From: a virus | IMG/VR virus record: IMGVR_UViG_3300021961_000434 | Location: 1-29,744 of that record | Length of the DNA stretch: 29,744 nt | Direction: 5' to 3' (one strand) | In this document: positions 27,554 through 29,744 of the stretch, piece after piece | Numbering within the stretch: position 1 is the first letter of the stretch | Layout of the letters: every line of letters starts with the position of its first letter | Notes under the pieces: model-generated | The model's database searches: none | Seen by the model: the letters and a program-made list of their open reading frames with translations, nothing else | What the model was told of the DNA's origin: nothing | Translations under genes and position numbers: made by a program

Positions 27554-29011
27554 TCAATAGTACTCCGGCACAAGCTCGCCCTTGTCCTGCGGCTCGTTGT
27601 CGTCAGACTCCAAGCTGATAAAGTTGCCCTGGCGAAAACGCATCATCGCCATGGTGGTGCTATCGACCATGTCGTCGTTGTCCCCGTTTGGAAAGGCCGC
27701 GCATTCCTCAACAAGCTCCTCGGCCCAGTCCGTGTCAGGGGCCCAGACCATCCCGGCCTCAAAGATCGGCGCCACCGCATTGGCCCGCGAAACCTTGTCG
27801 GTGCCGCTCCTGCGCCCGCCAGGTGAATACATGGTCACCGGAATGCTCATCCGGCGCAGCTCCTGCTGAAGCGACGTGCCCGTGGCCTTGGCCTCGATCA
27901 GCACGTTGTCAGGCTGCCAGTGATCGTACTGGTCCTTGGCCACGCGCTTGAGCTCCGGGAAGTCCCAGCGCCCACGCTTGACGTCGAGCAAGATGATTGA
28001 CGCCCCAGAGTCCTCGTTCAGGTAGAACACGCCCCAGGTGGTGATCACCGAATAGTCAGCCGTCTCCTTCTTGGAGTACGCCGTGTCCAACGATTGGATG
28101 ATGTAGTTCACCACCGGCGGATCGTCCTTTGGCCAGACCTTCCACCACTCGCGCTTCAAGATCGCGCCCTCGTCGTTGGTGGGCTGCTGCTGGTACATCG
28201 CGTTCCACTTCTGCACCGACAACGTGGCCTTGACCCCCTCCAGCTCCTCAATCTTCCAAAAGCCCGGCCATAAGGGTTTACCACTAGGCAAGCTGGCCGG
28301 AAACTCAATGACCTCCCACTGGTCCGCGTTGCGCGATCTCTGCGCCTTGAGCAGCCTCGCCGTCAGGTCCTTCGTGCCCCAGCGCGTCATCACGATCACG
28401 ATCGCGCCGCCTGGCTGCAGACGAGTCCTCGGGCCAGAGATGTACCAGTCCCAGGCATTGTCCAAAGCAAGGTCGCTCATCGCGTCCTGCTCCGAGTGCG
28501 GGTCGTCAATGATCAGAACGTCAGCGCCACGGCCAGTCATGGCACCGCCCACGCCAACGGCAAAGTACTCCCCGCCTTTGTTCGTGTCCCACCGGCCAGC
28601 AGCCTTGGAGTCCTGCTTGAGCGCAACATTGGGGAAGATTTCCTTGTAGGTGTCCATGTCCATCAGGTCACGGACCTTCCTGCCAAAGCGGACGGCGAGC
28701 TCGCTGTTGTGGGTCGCTTCAATGGCCTTGGTCCGCGGCTCTCTTCCCATGAGGTAGGCGGGCAGGAGATAGGACGCAAATTCAGACTTCGTGTGCCGCG
28801 GGGGCATGTTGATGATCAGGCGCTTCAAAGTGCCGTTGGCAATGCGGTCAAAGGCGTTGGCCATCTTCTGATGGTGCTCGCCAAGGATTGCCTCCGGCCA
28901 GACGTAGCGCACGAAATCGATGAAGTGAGCACGCGCTTTGTCTTGAGTTTCAAGCTGCGCGAGCCGGTACTCCAGCTTGAGCCGTTCCGATTCAATTTCG
29001 TCAGGGATCAT
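27554..29011 (-). CDS. Terminase large subunit (485 aa)
   Basis: The motor ATPase and nuclease that packages DNA. Residues 67-77 hold the Walker A-like motif (NMPPRHTKSEF), with Thr in place of the Gly before Lys. Walker B with catalytic acid is ADVLIIDDPHSE (163-174); the coupling motif is IVMTRW (206-211). The RNase H-like nuclease has likely metal ligands D309 (QSLDTAY), E373 (NVLIEAKATG) and D447 or D450 (NDDMVDSTT). The length is typical. It is the first gene of the transcription unit. No small terminase subunit is visible in the window. The ribosome site is weak (GGACC). Confidence 0.95.
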   Translation of the reverse strand: MIPDEIESERLKLEYRLAQLETQDKARAHFIDFVRYVWPEAILGEHHQKMANAFDRIANGTLKRLIINMPPRHTKSEFASYLLPAYLMGREPRTKAIEATHNSELAVRFGRKVRDLMDMDTYKEIFPNVALKQDSKAAGRWDTNKGGEYFAVGVGGAMTGRGADVLIIDDPHSEQDAMSDLALDNAWDWYISGPRTRLQPGGAIVIVMTRWGTKDLTARLLKAQRSRNADQWEVIEFPASLPSGKPLWPGFWKIEELEGVKATLSVQKWNAMYQQQPTNDEGAILKREWWKVWPKDDPPVVNYIIQSLDTAYSKKETADYSVITTWGVFYLNEDSGASIILLDVKRGRWDFPELKRVAKDQYDHWQPDNVLIEAKATGTSLQQELRRMSIPVTMYSPGGRRSGTDKVSRANAVAPIFEAGMVWAPDTDWAEELVEECAAFPNGDNDDMVDSTTMAMMRFRQGNFISLESDDNEPQDKGELVPEYY

Positions 29012-29043: not shown

Positions 29044-29072
29044 ATTTTGACACGAGTTGAGTTGGTTGACAA
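29044..29072 (-). promoter_or_regulatory. Candidate sigma-70-like promoter for the late operon
   Basis: On the minus strand TTGTCA (29067-29072, five of six matches to the -35 consensus) and CAAAAT (29044-29049, four of six to the -10) are 17 bases apart, 33 bases ahead of the terminase ATG. It is the only reasonable promoter-like pair ahead of the long minus-strand gene array. Match quality is moderate. Confidence 0.45.
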
Positions 29073-29104: not shown

Positions 29105-29120
29105 TGTTTCACGTGAAACC
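29105..29120. promoter_or_regulatory. parS-like centromere site (ParB-binding palindrome)
   Basis: TGTTTCACGTGAAACC matches the bacterial parS consensus TGTTNCACGTGAAACA at every specified base except the last. GTTTCACGTGAAAC (29106-29119) is a perfect 14-bp palindrome. parS is the binding and CTP-loading site of chromosomal ParB. No ParB gene is in this window. The site lies between the GC-rich repeat region and the candidate promoter of the terminase operon, in non-coding DNA. Confidence 0.8.
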
Positions 29121-29201
29121 TAGCGTGTGAAATCGGGCTAAAGCCTGCGCAGCTTGCACCCGGCCCGTTTTTTTGGGCCCCGGGGATACGGGGCATGTGA
29201 G

Positions 29202-29223
29202 CTGGCGCCTACTTCGGCGCCAG
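29202..29223. repeat. Perfect 8-bp stem hairpin
   Basis: CTGGCGCC (29202-29209) and GGCGCCAG (29216-29223) form an inverted repeat with the six-base loop TACTTC. No T-tract follows, so a terminator is not indicated. Confidence 0.7.
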
Positions 29224-29290
29224 GGCCCGCGGGCCGCGGCCCGGGCCACCAGGTCGGCGGGCCACCGCACCAGGTCGGCGGCCACCAGGT

Positions 29291-29355
29291 CGGGCGCCTG
29301 GTCGGCGGCCACCTGGTCGGGCGCCTGGTCGGCGGCCACCTGGTCGGGCGCCTGG
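29291..29355. repeat. 27-bp tandem repeat, about 2.4 copies
   Basis: 29291-29317 and 29318-29344 are identical 27-base units starting CGGGCGCCTGGTCGG, and a third partial unit of 11 bases follows (29345-29355). Flanking sequence on the left contains inverted versions (CACCAGGT versus ACCTGGT). Confidence 0.85.
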
Positions 29356-29414
29356 CCACCAGGTACGCGGCCCGCGGGCCACCGCACCAGGTCGGCGGTG
29401 TTTGCGTCCTGGTT

Positions 29415-29460
29415 CACAAACACGGGCCACCAGGACATGCATACACAAACACGGGCCACC
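29415..29460. repeat. 17-bp direct repeat, 29-bp period
   Basis: CACAAACACGGGCCACC occurs at 29415-29431 and 29444-29460. Confidence 0.85.
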
Positions 29461-29491
29461 GCACCAGGCCGGCGGGCCACCAGGTCGAACA

Positions 29492-29604
29492 ATAGGCCGG
29501 GGCTATCGGGGCCCGGCCCGCGGGCCGGGAAACGGGGCCGGAGCTGGCCGGCTCGGGCGCCTGGCGGTGGCCACCAGGCCGGCGGGCCATAGGCCGGGGC
29601 TATC
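29492..29604. repeat. 16-bp direct repeat
   Basis: ATAGGCCGGGGCTATC occurs at 29492-29507 and 29589-29604. Each copy has partial dyad symmetry (ATAG...CTAT). Confidence 0.8.
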
Positions 29605-29611
29605 CTGGCCG

Positions 29612-29631
29612 GTTTGCATGTACATGCAAAC
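29612..29631. repeat. 20-bp perfect palindrome
   Basis: GTTTGCATGTACATGCAAAC is a perfect palindrome of 20 bases and one of the few A/T-containing islands in this GC-rich region. Related CACAAACAC and CATGCA words lie at 29432-29452. It looks like an operator or other dimer-protein site. Confidence 0.8.
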
Positions 29632-29744
29632 ACGGCCCGCGGGCCACGATACCGCGGGCACGGCCCGGGGCGCCTGGTCGACCGACCAGGGGGCAGGCAT
29701 GGCCGGCCGGCGGCCTGGCGGGTTTCGACCACATAGGCGGCAGC

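Follow-up and report, generated by a model that had tools for sequence, protein, structure and literature searches.

A conserved cluster of sites upstream of the terminase gene in freshwater HTVC023P-type phages: a probable late-operon control region

Introduction

Well-known packaging sites of phages include the pac sites of P22 and SPP1 and the cosQ-cosN-cosB region of lambda, all of which lie next to terminase genes, and the OL/OR arrangement of lambda is a phage control region with an operator array. Bacterial chromosomes carry parS sites with the consensus TGTTNCACGTGAAACA. Here, we describe a noncoding, repeat-rich stretch in a virus record of 29,744 bases that has no end repeats (the window, i.e., the whole stretch of DNA that was analyzed), in which features recalling all three of these systems lie next to the gene for the terminase large subunit (TerL).

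The window derives from a freshwater (lake) phage of the HTVC023P type, and the nearest named phage is DSL-LC04. An intergenic region at the same place in DSL-LC04 (OR003939; 14329-15029) shares a short conserved core with the window (87.5% identity over 48 bp), a GC-rich spacer with short repeats and a GTTTGTAA..TTACAAAC pair, while it differs in its repeat words and in the absence of parS. The intergenic region is not mentioned in the consulted passages of the DSL-LC04 paper (PMC10611076). In the open-access literature, we found no description of this region or arrangement, nor of a parS site without ParB in a lytic phage, and the arrangement is apparently undescribed there.

Results

The TerL gene (27554..29011, minus strand; match to Pfam Terminase_6C, E-value 1e-12) is the first gene of the packaging/structural operon. 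Its product shared 77% identity with TerL of DSL-LC04 and 56 to 60% with those of HTVC023P-type pelagiphages. The repeat-rich stretch lies upstream of this gene and reaches the contig end. For comparison, we used 80 IMG/VR relatives, DSL-LC04 and three marine relatives, as well as seven freshwater contigs or genomes of 61 to 63 kb and 80 loci located from the opposite side of the region. The order of GC-rich block, core and TerL was constant in approximately 70 loci, and in the relatives the terminator of the upstream gene precedes the repeat spacer. Several small accessory genes upstream of TerL in G002, G006, G007 and DSL-LC04 seemed cassette-like, each with a separate promoter, hairpin leader and terminator.

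The repeat block had a GC content of 74%, compared to approximately 57 to 60% in the surroundings. Most of it is a hypervariable spacer with short interspersed and tandem repeats (29224..29744), containing four copies of GGCCCGCGGGCC (29224-29235, 29369-29380, 29515-29526, and 29634-29645), a 27-bp tandem array of 3.1 copies (29273-29355), two copies each of the 17-bp direct repeat CACAAACACGGGCCACC and the 16-bp direct repeat ATAGGCCGGGGCTATC, and a 20-bp perfect palindrome, GTTTGCATGTACATGCAAAC (29612-29631). The palindrome was identical in five relatives and represents a second site of a GTTTG/CAAAC operator-like family (see below). An adjacent hairpin with an 8-bp stem, CTGGCGCC-TACTTC-GGCGCCAG (29202-29223), was lineage-specific, and relatives often carried a GTGAGT..ACTCAC element at this position instead.

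When compared with 300 dinucleotide shuffles, the number of palindromes of at least 12 bp (6, shuffle mean 0.6), the longest direct repeat (41, 10.8 in the shuffles) and the GGCC count (34, 15 in the shuffles) were not reached in any shuffle, and GGCCCGCGGGCC, found four times here, had a count of 0 in the shuffles; the longest palindrome (20 bp), taken alone, was a milder excess, with 3/300 shuffles reaching it. The repeats, palindrome and hairpin that a preliminary description of this DNA had listed were thus present at their claimed places and above the shuffled background. The coordinates given there for the block (29121 to 29744) need two corrections: the block probably extends beyond the contig end, and two conserved elements, a parS-like site (29105-29120) and the core (29124-29186), sit at and just outside the left edge. 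Enrichment of GGCC, together with CCWGG, was also seen in most genomes in an upstream island of approximately 4 kb, coding sequence included. In G006, both motifs were several times denser in this island, approximately 4 kb upstream of TerL, and CCWGG was almost missing outside it; the island was similarly dense in G002, G007 and G010.

Open frames of 113 to 211 amino acids can be drawn mechanically in the stretch, and contigs often terminate in this region, as would be expected if it were coding sequence or an assembly artefact. However, searches of these frames against PHROGs gave nothing informative (a single weak match, E-value 4.6e-4, of unknown function), and in the relatives stop codons favored no frame and no frame was consistently open across the region. 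The coding reading was rejected on these grounds, and the earlier statement that the stretch holds no gene stands. An artefact, also named as a possibility in that description, was excluded because the same block was found in L008 (IMG/VR 3300021963), a contig assembled independently from a near-identical phage. Taken together, we find either of these readings scarcely credible.

The preliminary description had proposed aligning the locus in relatives. This showed a GC-rich block at the same place in almost all of the approximately 70 relatives, together with conservation of the fixed sites, while the repeat words varied by lineage, with CCTGGTGGCCGCCGA in some relatives and GGCCGTGGCCATGG in others. 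One relative (L038) had a shorter, lower-GC block with the words TTCGCGG and CATGGTG, and two loci ended in arrays that repeat a 15-bp unit 11 and 17 times in tandem. Among six genomes tested, all displayed an excess of direct repeats (the longest repeat being only marginal in DSL-LC04), and an excess of palindromes was observed in the window and G010 and not in G004, G006, G007 or DSL-LC04. Between the window and L008, the core-to-TerL stretch was identical, and the 27-bp array in L008 had one unit fewer. From these comparisons, the GC-rich block behaves as a fast-evolving, slippage-prone spacer and not as a conserved binding array. The initial emphasis on palindromes and GC-rich repeats had therefore fallen on the nonconserved part of the locus, in which words are lineage-specific and copy number changes even between near-identical phages.

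It could be hypothesized that the repeats are a functionless spacer, neutral or slightly deleterious, and that the flanking sites alone matter. The lineage-specific words, the turnover in copy number, the 15-bp arrays and the reduced block of L038 are what this would predict, although it accounts poorly for the GC-richness retained by nearly all relatives and for the conserved GTTTG sites embedded in the block. We consider this a serious contender that falls somewhat short of an even chance.

Next to the hairpin lies a conserved core of approximately 65 bp (29124..29186, minus strand), consisting of GC-rich arms flanking an A run, GCTGCGCAGGC, a GGC-TTTA-GCC dyad and GATTTCACACG. The consensus from an alignment of 53 loci had GC-rich arms around A6-7, GCTGCGCRGGC, a GGC-NNNN-GCC dyad and GATTTCACACG. 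The core adjoins the terminase gene as a conserved single copy; it was matched by local alignment in 65/71 relatives, and a strict core pattern was found in 21 IMG/VR contigs, with TerL 131 to 461 bp downstream in every one of them (21/21). A weak candidate for a core homologue, at the right place in the marine phage HTVC027P, was rejected, as similar scores arise elsewhere by chance. In phage 023Pt_psg01, a 63% GC patch with two copies of GGGCCCACCCACCCC lies in a 37% GC stretch approximately 100 to 200 bp upstream of TerL and resembles the sequence that precedes the core in freshwater relatives. The core was also seen beside phage genes in a contig from a bacterial bin, which ends 12 nt past it.

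An RNA element was rejected as an explanation of the core. Rfam searches gave nothing near the gathering score, the consensus fold had only 3 invariant pairs, and no covariation was detected in the stem of the A loop (5.1 pairs for its own arms versus 5.0 for swapped arms). One inner pair of the dyad varied on both sides (T-A, C-G, and A-T) and was paired in 33/36 cases, a pattern compatible with either a DNA dyad or a tetraloop. Since both the core and the parS-like site are located upstream of the promoter motif described below, they most likely act as DNA rather than as leader RNA.

The parS-like site, TGTTTCACGTGAAACC (29105..29120, no strand assigned), is present in a single copy per genome. 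In 61/73 loci, a site with CACGTG and matches at 6 or more of the 8 arm positions lay no more than 105 bp from TerL, and no site of that quality was found elsewhere in 480 kb of sequence from freshwater relatives. It occupies three alternative positions, at about -98, -50, and -11 to -20. The last of these was observed in a subgroup with an HNH/zinc-ribbon ORF, where the site lies 11 to 20 bp before TerL. Because it shifts in this way, the site looks more like a position-independent loading site than like a promoter operator. In eight relatives of the subgroup, the HNH/zinc-ribbon-like ORF was inserted between the core and TerL. One record (L049) had its sole GTTTCACGTGAAAC at 30169-30182, approximately 3.4 kb downstream of the terminase start and not upstream of it, and the sequence around the parS-like site of HTVC027P reads as coding, so that this site may be accidental. 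At least 120 stretches of viral contigs from IMG/VR carried the exact 16-bp parS, TGTTTCACGTGAAACA, some of them with up to five copies (L236 and L263).

A partition region was among the functions suggested initially. The suggestion agrees with the parS-like site and not with the gene content, as parA and parB were not found: the N-terminal domain of ParB (PF02195) was detected neither in the window nor in any of 17 related records (0/17), with control genomes positive, and a ParA-type ATPase (PF13614, AAA_31) in 0/10 records. Of the components of a ParABS locus, we thus found the parS palindrome and neither ParB nor the ParA-type ATPase, and a plasmid comparison gave no match. Despite the conserved site, a self-contained, plasmid-like partition locus is therefore highly improbable, with the ParB domain absent from 18 records and the AAA_31 ParA from 10. 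The site may be a loading site for the ParB of the host.

A sigma-70-like promoter aimed at the terminase gene, TTGTCA-17-CAAAAT with a TG before the second hexamer, was identified at 29044..29072 (minus strand). More than 30 relatives carried the hexamers TTGTCA/CAAAAT near position -60, and the promoter scan was passed by 57/73 loci compared to 23/400 control windows. The distance from the core to this promoter varies from approximately 65 to more than 100 bp, unlike what would be expected of a classical activator site.

Within the GC-rich spacer, we identified an operator-like GTTTG/CAAAC array (29400..29450), spaced as in the relatives and with a degenerate second copy. In 33 distinct examples of the array, most copies were 23/24 and 29/30 bp apart, with the unit pattern GTTTG..CAAAC at a strict spacing of 6 + 23/24 bp. 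Inverted copies were separated by 20, 22 to 23, or 30 to 31 bp, i.e., in steps of about one helical turn. The array lies approximately 250 to 620 bp upstream of TerL, and no recognizable promoter was found on it in the spacer. The same inverted repeat overlies TTGAC..TAGAAT/CATAAT-like sequence in front of accessory genes 2 to 5 kb away, which points to the operator of a regulator. A strict scan (16 to 18 bp) detected no overlapping promoter at three such promoter-associated sites, as the spacing at these sites is closer to 19.

Repeats, palindromes and an intergenic position are also properties of a replication origin with a binding-site array, another of the functions suggested initially. 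However, no DnaA box was found in the window with strict or relaxed patterns, and the detrended cumulative GC skew, a check that the preliminary description had proposed, had no common extreme at the locus in seven long genomes. The repeat words were lineage-specific, leaving the GTTTG sites as the only conserved ones, and the region is GC-rich, with an AT-richer composition only in a short stretch at the terminase gene. The origin claim thus found no support, and we regard an origin at this position as very improbable.

A packaging site had likewise been suggested initially, and we considered whether the core could be a packaging initiation site (pac or cos), with the GTTTG array providing small-terminase sites. 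The core is a single copy with an obligatory linkage to TerL, it is conserved at the DNA level upstream of the promoter, and the density of contig ends in the 600 bp upstream of TerL was several times that of most downstream bins, all of which would be in line with packaging. Conversely, these ends were spread over 1 to 1031 bp, several of them starting inside tandem arrays, as repeat-broken assemblies would, and three relatives represented by circular contigs with a terminal overlap of 116 to 127 bp had their ends elsewhere, arguing against a fixed cos end. GTTTG sites also occur at other promoters, and the small terminase gene is approximately 5 kb away. The pattern of contig ends fits circularly permuted or circular maps plus repeat-broken assemblies; it disfavors a simple one-point cos end and leaves a pac-type start possible. 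Overall, we regard the packaging reading as doubtful, if clearly less so than an origin.

Discussion

The preliminary description had proposed a composite cis-acting locus beside the parS-like site, where the packaging operon starts, and conservation in approximately 70 relatives backs this proposal. Our favored reading, which we hold to be probable, is that the region is a composite late-operon control region of a freshwater HTVC023P-type phage, located between the accessory/middle island and the late operon. It possibly includes the packaging start site and carries a parS site for host ParB. As the sites persist while the repeats change by lineage, the working parts are likely the promoter, the parS-like site, the core and the GTTTG array, some of them outside the coordinates first given for the block, with the repeats as variable filler.

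This late-control reading builds on the anatomy, conservation, linkage and single copy of the sites, on repeat turnover and on the undetected ParB and ParA genes; we infer the binder of each site and the effect of binding. Along the direction of transcription, the order would be terminator, GC-rich spacer with the GTTTG array, core, parS-like site, promoter and terminase gene, and the sites would work as double-stranded DNA. A phage regulator may bind the GTTTG array and perhaps also the nearby accessory promoters, and the core could be a terminase-linked landing site for late activation or the start of packaging. Host ParB would load at parS and coat the neighborhood, and the GC-rich repeats would serve as a spacer that expands and contracts by slippage and recombination. 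More speculatively, and in our view rather unlikely, this lytic phage family may recruit host ParB, perhaps with SMC, through one host-type parS beside the terminase gene, with ParB spreading to organize or position the DNA at the core for late transcription or packaging and the repeats acting as a tunable spacer.

Should these sites act in the proposed way, a widespread phage lineage that is mostly uncultured would possess a defined locus for late control, and possibly for packaging, with parts accessible to testing, and if the recruitment of ParB is true, lytic phages would exploit the bacterial chromosome-segregation machinery in trans. The locus also holds a lesson for repeat-rich regions, in that the quiet core and parS deserve testing over the eye-catching palindromes.

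Compared with phage pac/cos regions, the region differs in giving no evidence of a cut, in its distant small terminase gene, in having GTTTG sites elsewhere as well and in its hypervariable, GC-rich spacer, while it resembles them in adjoining the terminase gene and in combining a short conserved core with an array of repeated sites. The phage parS-like site differs from bacterial parS in being a single copy adjoining the terminase gene, in a phage in which neither parB nor parA was detected, and yet it is identical at 14 to 16 bp, with T/C variation at the variable inner position (GTTTCACGTGAAAC and GTTCCACGTGGAAC). Finally, the array lacks a promoter and lies approximately 250 to 620 bp upstream of TerL, unlike the operator arrays of phage control regions such as lambda OL/OR, with which the locus shares inverted and direct operator-like sites, a terminator before them and a promoter after them.
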